Virus record (IMG/VR): IMGVR_UViG_3300025910_000038
Location: 1-22,117 of that record
Strand: one strand, 5' to 3'
Origin: a virus
Length of the DNA: 22,117 bases
The position numbers and the translations under genes are program-made. Shown here one piece after another: positions 1,058 through 12,613 of the stretch. The notes under the pieces are model-generated. The model was not told the DNA's origin, did not search any database, and worked only from the letters and a program-made list of their open reading frames with translations. Each line of letters begins with the position of its first letter. The stretch's first letter is position 1.

Positions 1058-2044
1058 ATGTTTAATACCTGGCCTATACCCTGGCAGGAGTGCGCGTCTG
1101 CGTTCCTGCAATCGATCTATGATATCTCCGGCTCCGAGCCAAGCCGCGAGACGTATCGCTCAAACCTTGCTCGATTCTTCAAGCATTGTGGCAAGCAGCC
1201 CGACGAGGTTTCTCGTAGCGATGTCCTCGCTTTCATGCAAAGCCCAAGTATCGCACGATGTAACCCTGGCGGCGAGGCCTCGGCTAGCACGAAAAACCAA
1301 CGCCTCTGTGTCCTCACCTCGTTCTATCGCTTCGCCAGCTCCTATGAGGCCAATGGCGAACCTATCTACCAGAAGGCTATACCAACCCAAGGGATACGCT
1401 ACCTCAAGCCTGATGCGCCCTATCGCTCGATGAATACCGACGAACTCAAGCGCTTCTTTGCGGCGATCCCCGGCGATACGATCAAAGGTAAGCGCGATTA
1501 TGCTCTCTTCGCTACCTACTTCTGGACAGCCAGGCGGCGCAACGAGATTGCCGCTATCCGGTGGCGCGACATCGAACCCGCTATTATTGTCGAGCGCGAC
1601 GGAACCAGGCGAACCGGCCATGTCTATCGCTATCGCCCGAAAGGCAAGCACAGGCAAATCAAGACGAAAGAGCTACCGCCGCGTGCCTGGCAACTCATCG
1701 AGCGCTATCTTGAGTCATCCGGTAGGCTCTTCACCATCCAGCCGGACGACTTCATTTTCATTTCGACGAAACCCGGGCAAGCAGGCAAACCGTTGCACGA
1801 CGATTATATTAATACCCTTTTCAAACAGTATGCGATAGCCGCAAACCTTGATGTCAACCGGCTTAGTTTACACTCACTTCGCCACGGCGCAGCCCATGAG
1901 CGCCAGCAGGCCGGGCAAGATATCCTCCTCATCAAAGACCTGCTGGATCACGAACGCCTGGATACGACATTCCGCTATTTGCAGCGTATCGGCGGCGTTG
2001 CTGACCCAGGCGCAAAGCTGCTTGAAGCCAGGTATGGCCTCTAA
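1058..2044 (+). CDS. int: Tyrosine-family site-specific recombinase (phage integrase)
   Basis: A 328-aa tyrosine recombinase, the normal length for phage integrases. Residues about 8-110 form a SAM-like core-binding domain (YRSNLARFFKHCGKQPDEV, then STKNQRLCVLTSFYRFA). The catalytic domain spans about 120-325. The active-site set is visible: R160 in the FWTARRRNEI motif, K195/K197 in RPKGKHRQ, H272 and R275 in LHSLRH, H298 in LLDHERLDTT, and the nucleophile Y307 in FRYLQ. All expected residues are present, so it should be active. The motif normally reads TGLR; here it is TARR. The start has no strong ribosome-binding site, and a hairpin lies just upstream. It ends one base before a 36-bp repeat array and converges on the tas gene. 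Confidence 0.93.
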   Translation: MFNTWPIPWQECASAFLQSIYDISGSEPSRETYRSNLARFFKHCGKQPDEVSRSDVLAFMQSPSIARCNPGGEASASTKNQRLCVLTSFYRFASSYEANGEPIYQKAIPTQGIRYLKPDAPYRSMNTDELKRFFAAIPGDTIKGKRDYALFATYFWTARRRNEIAAIRWRDIEPAIIVERDGTRRTGHVYRYRPKGKHRQIKTKELPPRAWQLIERYLESSGRLFTIQPDDFIFISTKPGQAGKPLHDDYINTLFKQYAIAANLDVNRLSLHSLRHGAAHERQQAGQDILLIKDLLDHERLDTTFRYLQRIGGVADPGAKLLEARYGL

Positions 2045-2045
2045 A

Positions 2046-2810
2046 TGGCTCGCTCTATCTTCCTGGTACACTCCTACGGAATGGCTCGCTCATTGACTTT
2101 GGCACTCTCTCAGACGTTGGCTCGCTCTGCATCGATGGTACTCTCATGGTCATTGGCTCGCTCTAACCTCTTGGCACTCTCTTGTAACATGGCTCGCTCC
2201 GCGTCATTGGTACTCTCATCCGGAGTGGCTCGCTCGCTAACAATGGTACTCTCAGATACCTTGGCTCGCTCGCGCCTATTGGTGCTCTCTATCAAGATGG
2301 CTCGCTCGCAGATGGCGGTACTCTCTGGGCGAATGGCTCGCTCTTGCATTATGATACTCTCATTCTTCCTGGCTCGCTCTCCTTTTAAGGTGCTCTCTTG
2401 CCATGTGGCTCGCTCCGCTACGATGGTGCTCTCCCAGGGACTGGCTCGCTCTTCATCAATGGTGCTCTCGTAAACCCTGGCTCGCTCTATCATCTTGGTA
2501 CTCTCTCGACATTCGGCTCGCTCACATCCACTGGTGCTCTCCAAAGACTTGGCTCGCTCGTATGGTATGATGCTATCCAGCACATTGGCTCGCTCAATAT
2601 GTATGGTACTCTCAAGTATAATGGCTCGCTCATCTTTCATGGTACTTTCCAAGCTGTTGGCTCGCTCACACTGTCTGGACTCTCCTATAGGATAGCTCGC
2701 TCTTTTGCTGTGGCACTCTCCTTGCAAGTGGCTCGCTCGCTTTTTTTGGTACTCTCTGCTAAGATGGCTCGCTCTTCAGCCTTGGTACTCTCGACCTTTT
2801 TGGCTTAGTC
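2046..2810 (-). repeat. TIGR-type array: 21 dual-spacer 36-bp units
   Basis: The plus strand shows 21 consecutive units of TGGCTCGCTC, an 8-nt variable stretch, TGGTACTCTC (often TGGCACTCTC or TGGTGCTCTC), and a second 8-nt variable stretch. This fills 2046-2800, with a decayed block (TGGCTTAGTC) at 2801-2810. All units are 36 bp except unit 18 (35 bp, second block TGGACTCTC). The two blocks share 7 of 10 bases. By eye all 42 spacers differ. This is not CRISPR: repeats are too short and spacers are 8 nt. It matches the published TIGR architecture as I recall it, where one 36-nt guide carries two short spacers and is used by IS110/Nop-related Tas proteins. The guide strand is inferred to be minus (blocks GAGAGTACCA and GAGCGAGCCA), because the array follows the tas gene directly in that direction. 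No terminator was found before the integrase. Confidence 0.88.
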
Positions 2811-3629
2811 GTCCTCCATCGGCCAATTAGGTGGCTTCAAGAGGTCAACATGTCCCATGTGTTCAATAACGAATGGTTTGGGCGGTAATGTGCCATATTC
2901 GGTTTCGTACCACACCCAATGGAGATGTGATAAGAACATCTTGACCGCATACCGCTTAGCACGCTCGTTGATGTGCGCAGGTGGCAGCTTGCCCTGTGCA
3001 TATGCTTTATAGGCTTCGGTTTCCTTACCCACTTTCTTGACAAGCGCCGCCGCCTGCTCAGCAAATGCACCCACTTCGTTGCGTTCCTGCTCTTGCGCTT
3101 TACGCGCTACATACAGCTTGCCATACACATCACGCTCGTTATTCTGGACCTTGACAAAGCTCTCCCCGATCTTCCAGCAGATCACTTTGAGTTCTGCATT
3201 CCAGGGGCGTTTCTGGCCTTTCTCCCAGGAAGCATTCGGGTTGAGTCCGGCAAAACTCCAGATATGCCCAACGGTCGGCGCTTTCGTGATGTCGATATGG
3301 GCCAGCAGGCCAGCGGCCAGCACCGGGCCAATCCCGATAATAGACCGGGCCCATTTGCCAACAACATTCGACTTACTGTACTTATCCAGAGCAGATTGGA
3401 TATTCTTCTCTAAGCCTTCCGTATTGCTATACATCCAGCGTATGAGGTCGTGTGGTTCGCCTGACTCAGACAAGGCGCGTATCTGATTGCCAAAGCGGAT
3501 ACGGTAGCCTTGTACCTGGTAGTAAGCGTCCACCATGAATCTGGCTTCCCCCGATGAGAGGACTTGCGCGGCCGTGCGCAAGTCTTTGTCGAGCTTGACA
3601 AACGGCTCAAGTCCTACGGTGTCTAACAT
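2805..3629 (-). CDS. tasA: TasA-like protein: IS110 Transposase_20/Nop-related, no nuclease domain
   Basis: A 274-aa protein with three signatures of the IS110-family C-terminal (Transposase_20) domain. There is a helix-hairpin-helix-like stretch, SIIGIGPVLAAGLLAHI, plus GHIWSFAGLNP (residues about 97-131). Next comes KRPWNAELKVICWKIGESF (140-158), followed by YGKLYVARK. Last comes a basic helix, NERAKRYAVKMFLSHL (221-236). The N-terminal RuvC-like DEDD domain of real IS110 transposases is absent; residues 1-95 are helical and unlike it. No HNH motif is seen. The start at 3627-3629 has AAAGG upstream; the longer frame to 3683 overlaps the preceding gene. The stop codon touches the last repeat of the adjacent 36-bp array. 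A nuclease-less Tas protein (TasA) that binds DNA through guides from the array fits best. A degenerate IS110 relative is the alternative. Confidence 0.75.
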   Translation of the reverse strand: MLDTVGLEPFVKLDKDLRTAAQVLSSGEARFMVDAYYQVQGYRIRFGNQIRALSESGEPHDLIRWMYSNTEGLEKNIQSALDKYSKSNVVGKWARSIIGIGPVLAAGLLAHIDITKAPTVGHIWSFAGLNPNASWEKGQKRPWNAELKVICWKIGESFVKVQNNERDVYGKLYVARKAQEQERNEVGAFAEQAAALVKKVGKETEAYKAYAQGKLPPAHINERAKRYAVKMFLSHLHWVWYETEYGTLPPKPFVIEHMGHVDLLKPPNWPMEDD

Positions 3630-3642
3630 ACTATTGCCTTTC

Positions 3643-3909
3643 TTATTCTCGCCCGGTGAGTATCGCTCTGATGCGTTTAGCATCTTTGGCTTTCACCATG
3701 CCGACGTTGAGACGTTCTCCGCCCTGACCATGAATGATAAGCTTGTGGCGACTCATGCCGGGCAGCCACATTGCCAGCTTGCTATCCAGGGCCGTGAATG
3801 ATGAGCGTGCCATCGTCTGTGATTTGATGGAGCCGAGTTCGACGATAATATGCGTATCGGTAATAATCACTTTACCTTGCGAGCAACGAGTACGTAAGAG
3901 TTCTGCCAT
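3643..3909 (-). CDS. Small beta-rich protein of the tas operon, possibly PH-like
   Basis: An 88-aa protein of unknown function. The alternation KVIITDTHIIVELGS, then ARSSFTALDSKLAM, then HKLIIHGQGGERLNVGMV, with a closing helix (KAKDAKRIRAIL), resembles small bacterial PH-like domains. That is a fold-level impression only. The ATG at 3907-3909 is preceded by AAGGAAG on the coding strand; the frame extends 10 codons further but without a better site. It sits 13 bases upstream of the tasA-like gene and just after the HTH gene, so all three are probably co-transcribed. No catalytic motif, signal peptide or membrane segment is visible. Position suggests an accessory of the tas system, but nothing in the sequence proves it. 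Confidence 0.6.
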   Translation of the reverse strand: MAELLRTRCSQGKVIITDTHIIVELGSIKSQTMARSSFTALDSKLAMWLPGMSRHKLIIHGQGGERLNVGMVKAKDAKRIRAILTGRE

Positions 3910-3938
3910 GATGTTCTTCCTTTCTACTGTATGATGCA

Positions 3939-4211
3939 CTACGAGTTTTGCGGTTTCTGCTTCAGCGAGAGCGCGGGCGGAACGACGTTAGACCTCACCG
4001 CTGGTTGCTTGTCCGTCTGCTGTTTTCGCTCTTGTGCTTCCTGGCGAAGTTGCCAGATACGCTCGAAATCCTCAAGCTTCATGTAGGCGCGTCTATCGAG
4101 CGGAAACCGCTTTTTCTCGATCTTCAGGTGATCCAGGTAGTAACGCAAGGTGCCACGAGCGACACCAAGCCTTTCTGTTGCCTCCTTGAGCGAAATGTAT
4201 TTTTCTTTCAT
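3939..4211 (-). CDS. MerR/excisionase-like HTH regulator, first gene of the tas operon
   Basis: A 90-aa protein whose residues 4-55 form a MerR-type winged HTH. Helices YISLKEATERLGVARGTLRY are followed by a basic stretch (KIEKKRFPLDRRAY) and KLEDFERIWQL. A Gln/Lys-rich, probably disordered tail follows. GAGGTGAC precedes the ATG on the coding strand. It is the first gene after the strong minus-strand promoter at 4247-4275 and lies upstream of the PH-like and tasA-like genes. It could autoregulate the operon by binding the repeats in the divergent promoter region. Direct regulation is inference. Confidence 0.75.
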   Translation of the reverse strand: MKEKYISLKEATERLGVARGTLRYYLDHLKIEKKRFPLDRRAYMKLEDFERIWQLRQEAQERKQQTDKQPAVRSNVVPPALSLKQKPQNS

Positions 4212-4246: not shown

Positions 4247-4275
4247 GTTATAACATACGAGTTTTGGCGTGTCAA
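4247..4275 (-). promoter_or_regulatory. Strong sigma70 promoter for the tas operon
   Basis: On the minus strand TTGACA (plus-strand 4270-4275), a 17-bp spacer and TATAAC (4247-4252) form a near-consensus sigma70 promoter. Transcription would start near 4240 and read the HTH, PH-like and tasA-like genes, then probably the repeat array. Confidence 0.8.
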
Positions 4276-4322
4276 GGCGAAAGATGCCAAATAAGTGGCT
4301 ACAAGTGTTGACATATGGCTAC
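4263..4322. promoter_or_regulatory. Possible operators between divergent promoters
   Basis: Between and within the two divergent promoters there is an inverted repeat, TTTGGCGT (4263-4270) and ATGCCAAA (4284-4291), with one mismatch. There are also two direct copies of TGGCTAC (4296-4302 and 4316-4322), 20 bp apart, the second inside the plus-strand promoter spacer. Such placement is typical of phage operators. The binding protein is unknown; the HTH encoded at 3939-4211 is a candidate. Confidence 0.4.
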
Positions 4323-4336
4323 GAATAGGCTATAAT
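4308..4336 (+). promoter_or_regulatory. Perfect-consensus sigma70 promoter for the early genes
   Basis: TTGACA (4308-4313), a 17-bp spacer and TATAAT (4331-4336) match the sigma70 consensus exactly. The predicted start near 4343 lies 30 bases before the ATG at 4373. It is divergent from the tas-operon promoter. Confidence 0.88.
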
Positions 4337-7586: not shown

Positions 7587-7685
7587 GTAGCATCATGACC
7601 CCAGGCGCAGGTGGGTAGGTACCATAAGACCTAGAACAGCGTCGGCCCCGCAGAGTGTATCAACAGCACCGAAGCGGGGATTTTT
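7587..7685 (+). ncRNA. Candidate ~100-nt phage small RNA
   Basis: This stretch is bounded by a good promoter (7552-7580) and a GC-rich intrinsic terminator (7646-7685). It has no credible open reading frame with a ribosome-binding site. It may be a regulatory small RNA. Alternatively it is a leader with premature termination ahead of the gene at 7818. No known RNA family recognised. Confidence 0.4.
7646..7685 (+). terminator. Intrinsic terminator
   Basis: CCCCGC (7646-7651) pairs with GCGGGG (7674-7679), followed by ATTTTT. It ends the candidate small RNA from the 7552 promoter. Confidence 0.65.
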
Positions 7686-7746
7686 AACAGAAAGAGGGTG
7701 AGGCTCCCGGAAGAGATTGACAACCGCATAGAAGCACAGACAACCC

Positions 7747-8842: not shown

Positions 8843-8912
8843 GTGGTCGATTGGAAAGCAATTCAATCCAAGTACGAGCAAGGGGCATCCTTGCGCGATG
8901 TTGTTGCTAAAG
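8843..8912 (+). pseudogene. Orphan terS-like HTH fragment left of the GIY-YIG insertion
   Basis: GTG at 8843 (AAGGG about 10 bases upstream) opens VDWKAIQSKYEQGASLRDVV, closely similar to the start of the terminase small subunit (IDWAKIRTEYESGLSLRQLA, from 9582). The similarity stops after about 23 residues, where the promoter/leader of the endonuclease gene begins. This looks like the 5' end of an ancestral or duplicated terS interrupted by that insertion. The frame happens to stay open into the endonuclease gene, so a 248-residue fusion is formally possible. Confidence 0.5.
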
Positions 8913-9016
8913 TTGCCCCACAAGCCGACTTATGCTATAATGAGGCATCAAATATTGTTGCGCTAGGCGGTGCTGCTAACACCCCTAGCCGGATACATCT
9001 GCAAGGAGACGTATCG
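8913..9016 (+). promoter_or_regulatory. Promoter and structured leader of the GIY-YIG gene (copy A)
   Basis: TTGCCC (8913-8918), 17 bp and extended -10 TGCTATAAT (8933-8941) precede a hairpin at 8962-8989: GCTAGG, bulged C, GGTG, 7-nt loop CTGCTAA, CACC, CCTAGC. Then come GGATACATCTG, AAGGAG and the ATG. The same arrangement precedes the HNH-AP2 gene (11883-11989) with compensatory changes in the stem, so it is a shared nucleic-acid-level module. It may time endonuclease expression or control its translation. Confidence 0.65.
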
Positions 9017-9589
9017 ATGGATATGATACCGCAAGACAACACGCCCCGCAACGCCGATTGGGAATTGATTAGACAGAGCTTTGAGCAGGGTGCCTCTTTA
9101 CGTGAAATTGCAGCGCGTTATGGCAGTTCCCCGGCAACCATTTTGCGGCGGGCTCGCCATGAGCAGTGGCAAAGGTCACTCACGACACATGATCCCGTTT
9201 GGAATAAATCCCGCGCTGAACGCAAATGGCGATTGAAACATCTTCATAAAGAACACTCCCACACGGATAAGGCCGTAGCTGTTTATTCCATCTATGCCCT
9301 CATTGATCCTAGAGATCAGTTAGTTCGCTATGTGGGTATGAGCCAAGATGTAATTAGGCGTTTTGGCTCACATCTCCGGCTAGAACATGATGAATCAAAT
9401 CCCGCTAAGACTGCTTGGATATCGGACTTAAGTTCGCATGTTTTACTCCCTATTCTTTCTGTATTAGAGACGGGTTTAACCTTCTATGATGCATCGAGAA
9501 GGGAAAAATATTGGATCACGTATTTTGCTTATGGCTTGGACATGCCTCTTGTCAATTATCGCCCATATAGTGAGATGCAGTATGATTGA
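9017..9589 (+). CDS. HTH-GIY-YIG homing endonuclease
   Basis: A 190-aa two-domain protein. Residues 14-51 form an HTH (DWELIRQSFEQGASLREIAA, then RYGSSPATILRRARHEQW) strongly resembling the N-terminal HTH of the neighbouring terminase small subunit. After a basic linker comes a GIY-YIG nuclease domain (about 88-185): YSIYALIDPRD, RYVGMS, an arginine in DVIRRF, and REKYWITYF with the likely metal-binding glutamate. The ATG at 9017 is preceded by AAGGAG with 8-base spacing and by its own promoter. Phage free-standing homing nucleases cut near conserved genes to spread themselves. Sitting upstream of terS with a terS-like HTH suggests the DNA-binding domain was captured from, or duplicated with, terS. 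Overlaps the terS start by 8 bases. Confidence 0.82.
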   Translation: MDMIPQDNTPRNADWELIRQSFEQGASLREIAARYGSSPATILRRARHEQWQRSLTTHDPVWNKSRAERKWRLKHLHKEHSHTDKAVAVYSIYALIDPRDQLVRYVGMSQDVIRRFGSHLRLEHDESNPAKTAWISDLSSHVLLPILSVLETGLTFYDASRREKYWITYFAYGLDMPLVNYRPYSEMQYD

Positions 9590-10223: not shown

Positions 10224-11880
10224 CGCACTGTTACATCCTCAAAAACTGAAGAAGGAGCTACAAGAACGAGGCAGAGAATCGTTCCGTTTCTTTGCACGGC
10301 AAGCCTGGCCTGTGCTTGAGCCAGGAACGGATCTTATCTGGAACTGGCACCTCGACGCGATCTGTGACCATCTGCAAGCCGTGTTCGAGCGGCGCATCAA
10401 ACGATTAGCCATCACCATCGCGCCCGGCCATGCCAAGTCCTCGTTTGTCTCGGTCCTGTTCCCGGTGTGGTGCTGGATTAGCGACCCGTATAGCCGCTGG
10501 CTGTGCGCTTCCTACTCGCTGGACATGGCGGTACGTGACAACAAGAACCGACGCGACCTGATTGAGTCCAACTGGTTTCAGGAACGCTACGGACCGCTGT
10601 TTGTTCTCTCCTCCTCGCAAAACGTCAAGGGCTTCTTTGAGAATGATAAACGCGGCTATTCGATTGCGGTAGCGGTGCGTGCATCGGGCACCGGCAAACG
10701 TGGCACACACCTCTTGATTGATGATCCGAACAATGCGATGGCTGGACTTGCTGACATCGAAGCTACCAAAGAGTGGTTCGGTAAAACCTGGATGTCCAGG
10801 CTCAACGATCAGGAAAATGGCTCCATGATCATAGTCGGTCAGAGGCTGCATGAGGAAGATTTGATCGGCCATGTGTTGAAGCTCGGCGGGTGGGAACATC
10901 TGAACCTGCCGGAAGAGTATGAGCCCGCCCGTAAAAGCTCCACCAGCATTGGGTGGGAAGATCCACGAACACAAGAGGGTGAATTGCTTTGGCCTGCGAT
11001 GTTTCCACGAGAGGCGTTAGATGCACTGAAGCGCGGTTTAGGGCCGCTGAATTATGCAGCACAGTTCCAGCAATCCCCTATTCCATCCGGTGGCTATATC
11101 TACAAGGAAAAAGACCGGCGCTGGTTTACCGTTGACCAAACGACCGAGTCCTACCTGCTTGAGACGCCGCGAGGCCGGGTCACTGTTCCTATCAAAGACT
11201 GCTGGAACCTGGCGGTGATTGATCTCGCTGTCTCCACGAAAAGCACCGCTGACTTCTTCTTGATGGAAACGTGGGCCATCACGCCCTACAAGGATGCGCT
11301 CTTGCTCCATGCCTTGCACGAGCACCTGGACTTTCCAGAGCAGCAACAACAGATACCGCTCATCTTCCAACGCTTTATGCACTCGATCATCGCTGTAGAG
11401 AAGGTTGGCTACCAGCTCGCCATGATCCAGTACCTCATCTCGCTAGGCTTGCCGATCAAGCCGTTCCAACCGAAGACCGATAAGATCATGCGTTCCACTA
11501 CTGGCTCTATCCTCTATAGCAACGGCAAAGTGTACCACAACAAGAACATGGAAGGCATCGAAGAGGCGGAGAAAGAACTGTTCAGCTTCCCCAAAGCGCC
11601 ACACGATGAGTACCCGGACTGTCATGCCATGATGGCGCTGGTGATCAGCACCTATGGCAGACCCGGCGTGCTTGATCTGGAGAACGCCGAGGTTGAACTT
11701 GACACGACACTGAGCATAGAGCAACTGATTGCCGCCGAAGCGGTGACGGAAGAGCAGAAAGAGCAGGCCGCGCAAGAGGCGCTGGCACAAGAGCAGGAGT
11801 TATTCAAAAAAGGTGGCGTACTCATAAACCCGTGGGAATGGAGCGAAACCCATGAGGAAGGTTGGGGATATGATAGCTAA
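10195..11880 (+). CDS. terL: Terminase large subunit (packaging ATPase-nuclease)
   Basis: A 561-aa large terminase. The ATPase domain has a P-loop variant IAPGHAKSS (residues about 75-83) and Walker B THLLIDDPNN (about 171-180). Coupling-type motifs include MIIVGQRLHEEDLIG. The motif NYAAQFQQSP (about 286-295) marks the ATPase-nuclease junction. The RNase-H-like nuclease has acidic residues at D343 (AVIDLAVS), E402 (IIAVEKVGYQ) and D475 (EYPDCHAMMAL). Length and order are standard for siphovirus TerL. The ATG at 10195 with GAGG upstream overlaps terS by 29 bases; a TTG at 10183 is possible. The last residues (GYDS) and TAA lie at the left edge of an inserted endonuclease element, so the native C-terminus was probably slightly different. 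Confidence 0.93.
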   Translation: MTASRTTGSNALLHPQKLKKELQERGRESFRFFARQAWPVLEPGTDLIWNWHLDAICDHLQAVFERRIKRLAITIAPGHAKSSFVSVLFPVWCWISDPYSRWLCASYSLDMAVRDNKNRRDLIESNWFQERYGPLFVLSSSQNVKGFFENDKRGYSIAVAVRASGTGKRGTHLLIDDPNNAMAGLADIEATKEWFGKTWMSRLNDQENGSMIIVGQRLHEEDLIGHVLKLGGWEHLNLPEEYEPARKSSTSIGWEDPRTQEGELLWPAMFPREALDALKRGLGPLNYAAQFQQSPIPSGGYIYKEKDRRWFTVDQTTESYLLETPRGRVTVPIKDCWNLAVIDLAVSTKSTADFFLMETWAITPYKDALLLHALHEHLDFPEQQQQIPLIFQRFMHSIIAVEKVGYQLAMIQYLISLGLPIKPFQPKTDKIMRSTTGSILYSNGKVYHNKNMEGIEEAEKELFSFPKAPHDEYPDCHAMMALVISTYGRPGVLDLENAEVELDTTLSIEQLIAAEAVTEEQKEQAAQEALAQEQELFKKGGVLINPWEWSETHEEGWGYDS

Positions 11881-11882
11881 AA

Positions 11883-11989
11883 TTGCTTCCCAGGCGGCTT
11901 TATGGTATAATGCAAGAGCTAAAAATGTTGTGTCGCGGCGGTACTGGACATACCCCGCGACCGGATACATCTGGATTGGAGATGCATCA
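11883..11989 (+). promoter_or_regulatory. Promoter and structured leader of the HNH-AP2 gene (copy B)
   Basis: TTGCTT (11883-11888), 17 bp and TATAAT (11906-11911; preceded by TATGG) are followed by a hairpin at 11933-11960: TCGCGG, bulged C, GGTA, 7-nt loop CTGGACA, TACC, CCGCGA. Then come CCGGATACATCTGG, GGAG and the ATG. The layout equals copy A at 8913-9016 with compensated stem changes. The GGATACATCTG box is read in different frames in the two copies, so conservation is not at protein level. Confidence 0.65.
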
Positions 11990-12613
11990 ATGGATACTGT
12001 ACCTCATTCTGGCCTCAACGACAATCCTCACATGATTCTTGTTCCACTTACATTAAAGGACAAGAATTTGTACGTTTCTATTAGCTTTGCTGATGCTGAA
12101 TTATCAGATAGGATTTGGCGCGCTCAGAGCAATGGAACTTCATTTTATGCTGTACGCACTGAGAGATATCCTGCTGGCGGTCCCAAGAAACAGCGTGTTG
12201 TATTTATGCATCGTGTGATATTGGAGCGTAAGTTAGGGCGTGCTATCCATCACGGCATGGTTGCAGACCATATTAATGGAAACACTTTAGATAATCGTCG
12301 TGAAAATCTACGCGAAGCAACACTGCGTCAAAATCAGCATAACAAGAGAGGACAATCACAAGCTTCTCATGGCTATAAAGGAGTAATTTGTTTACAGAAT
12401 TCTCCATCTAGAAAACAGGATACGCTTAAAAAACCTTGGGTTGCACGTATTTGGGGGGAAGGTAAACGCCATGAATATGGCGGGTTTGCCACAGTAGAGG
12501 AAGCTGCAAGGGCTTATGACCGTGCAGCAATTAGATTTAATGGAGAGTTTGTGCGTTTGAATTTCCCTAAAGAAGATTATGCGGAGCTGCACGAGGGAGG
12601 TGGTTGGGAATGA
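11990..12613 (+). CDS. HNH-AP2 homing endonuclease
   Basis: A 207-aa protein with an HNH_3-type nuclease domain (about 70-120: VFMHRVILERKLG; ADHINGNTLDNRRENLREAT; NQHNK) and an AP2/ERF DNA-binding domain (about 128-192: HGYKGVICL; KPWVARIWGEGKRHEYGGF; TVEEAARAYDRAAIRFNGEF). This is a classic phage homing-endonuclease pairing. The start at 11990 has GGAG 8 bases upstream; the longer in-frame opening at 11852 runs through the promoter/leader. It lies directly behind terL and its last residues (LHEGGGWE) resemble terL's own tail (THEEGWGYD). Its 3' end supplies the ribosome-binding site and ATGA overlap for the next gene. It is AT-richer than terL, consistent with transfer. Confidence 0.85.
   Translation: MDTVPHSGLNDNPHMILVPLTLKDKNLYVSISFADAELSDRIWRAQSNGTSFYAVRTERYPAGGPKKQRVVFMHRVILERKLGRAIHHGMVADHINGNTLDNRRENLREATLRQNQHNKRGQSQASHGYKGVICLQNSPSRKQDTLKKPWVARIWGEGKRHEYGGFATVEEAARAYDRAAIRFNGEFVRLNFPKEDYAELHEGGGWE

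Follow-up and report, generated by a model that had tools for sequence, protein, structure and literature searches.

A nuclease-free TIGR-TasA system in a phage genome, with candidate natural targets in the early regulatory DNA of related phages

The virus record IMGVR_UViG_3300025910_000038 (22,117 bases, analysed over its whole length and called the window here) encodes a TIGR-TasA system, consisting of tasA (2805-3629, minus strand), a gene for a 274-amino-acid (aa) solo Nop-domain TIGR-associated protein without a nuclease domain, and an adjoining array of 21 guide units (2046-2810, minus strand). Two of these guides match early regulatory DNA in four related phage contigs, and the best reading of TIGR-TasA is probably RNA-guided, non-cleaving silencing of competing phages. 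More tentatively, and at somewhat less than even confidence, the array may be a store of 16-bp addresses that point to the early regulatory regions of temperate competitors, both phages and satellites, regions that TasA would silence without cutting. The window itself is, judged by its gene content, a temperate tailed phage, because it carries portal, capsid, terminase and integrase genes. The family, the fold, the absence of a nuclease, the array anatomy and the guide matches (guides 6 and 18 and one guide from Acidobacteriaceae bacterium KBS 96) were all derived here by sequence-based analysis.

That the window protein belongs to TIGR-TasA is near certain. It scored 218 bits against the dedicated model NCBIfam NF052498 (TIGR_Tas_endo; cut-off 100), and 25 bits against the IS110 family model, under the cut-off of 140. 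The original prediction had placed a protein with Transposase_20 landmarks at 2805-3629; it is present, on the minus strand, every quoted motif was found, and Pfam Transposase_20 matched above its cut-off (23.7 bits; cut-off 21.3), the match being confined to residues 113-150. Sequence comparison with solved structures gave TasR (9mty, E 3.6e-21, or 2.1e-24 with a profile) and TasH as the nearest. No nuclease family, neither RuvC/DEDD nor HNH, was matched in the family-model searches. The longest open reading frame (ORF) of the tasA frame begins at 3683 (292 aa), and an alternative methionine at 3629 (MLDTV...) gives 274 aa; we prefer the latter as the start because a relative with 89% identity (locus L002) begins at the equivalent methionine.

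The structure prediction and comparison that the original prediction had proposed pointed the same way. Using 35 sequences of tas loci, AlphaFold gave an all-helical model with a pLDDT of 90, and comparison by Foldseek and VIA-align placed TasH (Z 20.2, 217 residues, 3.1 A) and TasR (Z 18.7, 195 residues, 2.4 A) on top, with IS621 and ISCro4 next (Z 13.4); the subsequent matches, at Z ~8, look like generic helix matches. None of the structure matches listed was a Nop5/Nop56 entry, which does not exclude a likeness to these proteins. As modelled, TasA is a Nop-domain fold with a coiled coil as in TasR and TasH. Its residues 23-271 align with residues 110-322 of TasR, 64-309 of TasH and 125-318 of IS621, and since the aligned part starts at residues 110, 64 and 125, respectively, the catalytic N-terminal domains are absent in TasA. 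The proposed lack of an N-terminal DEDD/RuvC-like domain and of an HNH domain is therefore borne out, and with no such domain present, a complete IS110 transposase whose catalytic domain has diverged can be excluded. The TasA-type assignment, which likewise stands, rests on the dedicated family model, the fold and the adjoining array taken together.

The array lies on the same strand as tasA, and its units measure 36 nucleotides (nt) each, with one unit of 35 nt. Every unit consists of an edge repeat GAGCGAGCCA, an 8-nt spacer A, a loop repeat GAGAGTACCA and an 8-nt spacer B, the repeats being 10 nt long; both lengths fall within the 8-12 nt given for TIGR repeats and spacers, and the array agrees with published accounts of TIGR-TasA. 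At its start a truncated edge is fused to the tasA stop codon (TAAGCCA; stop codon at 2805-2807), and at its end stands a complete edge repeat; truncated edges and a following terminator are typical of TIGR arrays without defining them. Because its period is a multiple of three, a 205-aa reading frame stays open through the array (2110-2727, minus strand), and we dismissed it as an artefact of the repeats. A single IMG/VR scan gave 80 related viral loci, and because a dual-repeat array stands beside tas in most of them, the tasA-array pair is not a chance arrangement. The repeat sequences vary from locus to locus, with edge and loop mostly retaining matching box ends: both end in CCG in L017, L019 and L039, in CCC in L050 and L053 and in CCA in the window, with exceptions such as GATCGAGACA paired with GAGAGAACCA. 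In 26 of the 56 loci tested, L002, L005, L009, L041 and L082 among them, the array starts at the tas stop codon, which runs directly into the box C end of a truncated first edge (TAAGCCA, TAGCCA, TAACCA). Three arrays (L023, L036 and L038) have a period of 34 nt and an 8-nt loop repeat (GAACATCA). No TasA relative was found in the plasmid collection.

In published work on TIGR systems the geometry comprises 8-nt 3' overhangs and spacers pairing with opposite strands, from which we infer that a target should read as spacer A followed by the reverse complement of spacer B. Unit 6 (2596-2631, minus strand; A TTATACTT, B TACATATT) yields the 16-mer TTATACTTAATATGTA, which matched 37 stretches in IMG/VR, four of them mutually homologous and one of these, contig 3300005445_000003, identified earlier as the nearest TasA relative. 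The match to guide 6 is exact in all four related phage contigs, and in all four the site of guide 18 (unit 18, 2164-2199, minus strand; A TGTTACAA, B AGAGGTTA) lies 146 bp away, without a mismatch in 3300005471_000027 and with a single one in each of the other three. The tandem-spacer rule of A plus the reverse complement of B thus fits both guides in silico; three alternative spacer arrangements and neighbour-mispaired spacers gave no match at ≤1 mismatch. Over 730 guide pairs and 2.2 Mb of relatives, guides 6 and 18 were the only ones with exact matches in this arrangement, the controls giving a few scattered chance matches, and searches for cross-targets in ~1 Mb, later 2.2 Mb, of relatives found none above controls save these two. 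Every IMG/VR contig found in this phage group that has the region carries the guide matches, while the fifth contig, 3300005518_000042, is a fragment without it. TasA was found in one of the five contigs, and the known part of the window lacks the targeted region.

That the matches are coincidental and the function of the system remains unknown is hardly credible. A 16-mer matches ~25-37 stretches of IMG/VR, most of them unrelated, as illustrated by guide 9 (unit 9, 2488-2523, minus strand), with 25 matches and none within this phage group; its spacer B (AGATGATA) also occurs in arrays L002 and L035, each time with a different spacer A. Against coincidence, the two guides lie 146 bp apart in a relative that had been identified before the scan, none of 6000 randomised sets (3000 re-paired, 3000 letter-shuffled) put two guides within 300 bp, and a further, independent match was found in KBS 96.

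In 3300005445_000003 the two sites fall in a gene-poor stretch that runs from an excisionase-like regulator group to the leading gene of an operon that reads leftward and includes replication genes. A consensus scan for promoter-like sites showed that the guide 6 site covers TTGACA-17-TATAAT at 27560-27588 of this contig, a 12/12 match to the sigma-70 consensus, and that the guide 18 site, directly upstream of the start codon of the first early gene, covers a weaker match, TTGCCA-17-TACAAT, preceded by TG. Both promoter-like sites point away from the leftward operon; we infer that a complex on double-stranded DNA could block transcription in either direction. Behind the guide 6 promoter, a stretch of ~120 nt ends in a strong terminator-like stem of 13 bp (~7590-7720 in the numbering of L129, plus strand, from 3300005445_000003), with the promoter part conserved in the four phages. 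Judged by this layout, the stretch is possibly a short phage RNA; its overall folding is no better than that of shuffles (z -0.6), and an Rfam search of the window and the target region found nothing.

In a scan of genomes, TasA also turned up in a TIGR-TasA prophage of Acidobacteriaceae bacterium KBS 96, and we searched six of its guides on the 6.69-Mb chromosome of that bacterium. One of them (TAAAAGCAGAATCGAA) matched exactly at position 6,329,962, with ~0.02 exact matches expected for six guides; one more had a one-mismatch match elsewhere, at chance rate. The target lies more than 10 codons into an 86-codon helix-turn-helix (HTH) gene whose operon, the early operon of a different integrated phage-like element, is divergent from an XRE regulator. 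This match is independent of the case of guides 6 and 18. The targeted element (KB906767.1, ~6.324-6.332 Mb, L258/L259, roughly 8 kb) carries integrase, XRE regulator, replication, major capsid and prohead protease genes and, by these genes, resembles a capsid-encoding satellite or reduced prophage. In Halomonas NO4, two guides compared with their own genome gave no match.

These targets also bear on the idea that TasA controls host genes, in the manner of the phage-encoded TldR acting on a flagellin promoter, which we regard as unlikely. TldR does show that phages employ RNA-guided proteins with a dead nuclease to control their hosts (PMC13418256), and most guides of the window are without a known target. 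All targets found are nevertheless in phage or phage-like DNA, and the sole exact match of the six KBS 96 guides chromosome-wide lies in another integrated element.

Several observations weigh against the silencing of early regulatory regions. Known targets exist for only two of the 21 window guides, and for one of these, guide 18, the fifth position of spacer B is mismatched in three of the four phages. Guides from the L002 array, that of the nearest relative, gave no target when compared with the window and the other relatives, and self-targets in the sequences of the window and its relatives showed no excess over controls. The clustering of the two sites is partly expected, as a conserved early region makes targets easier to recognise. 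By itself, the promoter match under guide 18 does not exceed what chance would give in that region, promoter hexamers were not in excess over 734 guide pairs, and in KBS 96 the target falls at the start of a gene rather than in a promoter. Because self- or reciprocal targeting is not seen and hexamers are not in excess, 'promoters only' is not the rule.

If silencing is nonetheless the function, the system would probably work as follows, with processing, dimer formation, strand-split pairing and bending transferred from the TasR/TasH literature and with silencing and its benefit deduced from the position of the targets. The array would be cotranscribed with tasA and then processed to 36-nt tigRNAs, one of which a TasA dimer would grip through the edge and loop repeats. 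Spacer A would pair with one strand and spacer B with the other, along an uninterrupted 16-bp site, and because TasA has no nuclease, the complex would occupy and probably bend this site without cutting it. If the site lay within the early control DNA of a temperate competitor phage, this would block transcription there, and the outcome would be programmable superinfection immunity.

The original prediction had left the choice between silencing and the recruitment of another effector. Silencing is favoured: two guides match an early regulatory region of related phages, and tasA has no conserved partner. That the task of TasA is instead to recruit an effector, be it a nuclease, a methylase or a ParB-like protein, to the site chosen by the guide appears improbable. 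A ParB-like operon partner does occur in some TasA loci, yet among the 59 loci tested no gene family is conserved near tasA, the best recurrent true neighbours being found in at most ~7 loci, and the 98-aa ORF directly upstream of tasA in the window (3643-3939, minus strand, codirectional, likely start 3909) is not conserved beside tasA in the other loci.

Faure et al. (PMC12045711) speculated that TasA aids integration, in which case it would be RNA-guided and bend chosen sites to help the adjacent integrase. In the window the array does abut an integrase gene: the tyrosine integrase (1058-2044, plus strand; Pfam PF00589, E 2.8e-19) is convergent with it, only 1 nt separates the integrase stop codon from the last edge repeat (2044-2055), and a simple scan found no terminator between the two. 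TasR, moreover, bends its target by nearly 180 degrees. We nevertheless find such a role very doubtful, as the array of L002 is distant from its integrase and adjoins structural and lysis genes, no integrase is recurrent beside tasA, and the targets found are early regulatory DNA rather than attachment sites.

On the minus strand of the window, tasA and the array form a leftward cluster with the 98-aa ORF and, as its first gene, a 90-aa MerR/excisionase-like HTH regulator (3939-4211). Upstream of this cluster, the sequence contains a promoter-like TTGACA-17-TATAAC (4247-4275, minus strand), divergent from a TTGACA-17-TATAAT (4308-4336, plus strand; 12/12) that precedes the rightward early genes; both are consensus matches only. 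Elsewhere, two GIY-YIG-like genes (428-877 and 8843-9589) have a 60-nt stretch in common at 72% identity and are possible mobile endonuclease paralogs, and a 253-aa ORF between the terminase and portal genes (11852-12613; residues DHINGNTLDNRRENL) reads, from its sequence, like an HNH/AP2-type homing endonuclease.

A few guides of other arrays were conspicuous in their own right. The spacer pair TTGACAGA/AGTCGAGA of L015 recurs with A and B swapped in the unrelated arrays L026, L040 and L048, which amounts to the identical 16-bp site read from the opposite strand and suggests, at the sequence level, independent acquisition of one target. In the related arrays L044 and L047, two guides specify a near-identical site with a register offset of 2 bp and 13/14 positions matching; this likeness exists only under A plus the reverse complement of B, and the count is about the chance expectation over all pairs. 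The guide TTGACAGATCTCGACT, common to unrelated arrays, had one IMG/VR match, apparently within a gene.

The type of system is already known, and the new part is its targets. TIGR-TasA was described by Faure et al. in 2025, with Flavonifractor plautii TasA as an example; no other Tas protein is as common as TasA, yet its discoverers call its function unclear and report difficulty in tracing spacers to true targets (PMC12045711). The Flavonifractor system shares with the window the solo Nop-domain protein, the 36-nt dual-repeat units, the truncated first edge and the location on a phage, but its spacers are 9 nt long instead of 8 nt and its repeats are different; unlike it, the window has no terminator found behind the array and has two guides with candidate natural targets. 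TasH and TasR (PDB 9w04, 21kl; 9mty) have in common with the window TasA the Nop fold with a coiled coil and the tandem-spacer rule, the spacer total in Salicola TasH being 16 nt as in the window; since the window protein lacks their HNH or RuvC domains, no cutting is expected. The IS110 family (IS621, ISCro4) shares the RNA-binding Nop-like domain (Z 13.4) and the Transposase_20 motif, whereas TasA is without the DEDD catalytic domain and has its guides in an array rather than in one bridge RNA. In function, the proposed TasA resembles TldR, a nuclease-dead TnpB-like protein that is likewise phage-encoded and controls transcription in an RNA-guided, nuclease-free manner (PMC13418256), although TldR is unrelated as a protein and was described for a host flagellin gene, other phages not being its object. 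It also resembles the Type IV and V-M CRISPR systems of mobile elements, in which array-stored guides serve interference between mobile elements without cleavage (PMC12045711), but there the protein is again unrelated and one long spacer plus a protospacer adjacent motif takes the place of two short spacers.

Our search of the literature, mostly without subscription papers and preprints, returned no paper on natural TIGR targets. If our reading is true, guides 6 and 18 and the KBS 96 guide would have the first natural TasA targets known to us. With these sites come precise DNA sequences, one promoter and, in KBS 96, an isolate with a sequenced genome, so that the silencing of rival phages can be put to the test. 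If TasA does silence them, phages would own an array-based, non-cleaving form of immunity that runs parallel to CRISPR interference without being related to it, and TasA would amount to a programmable repressor of very small size.
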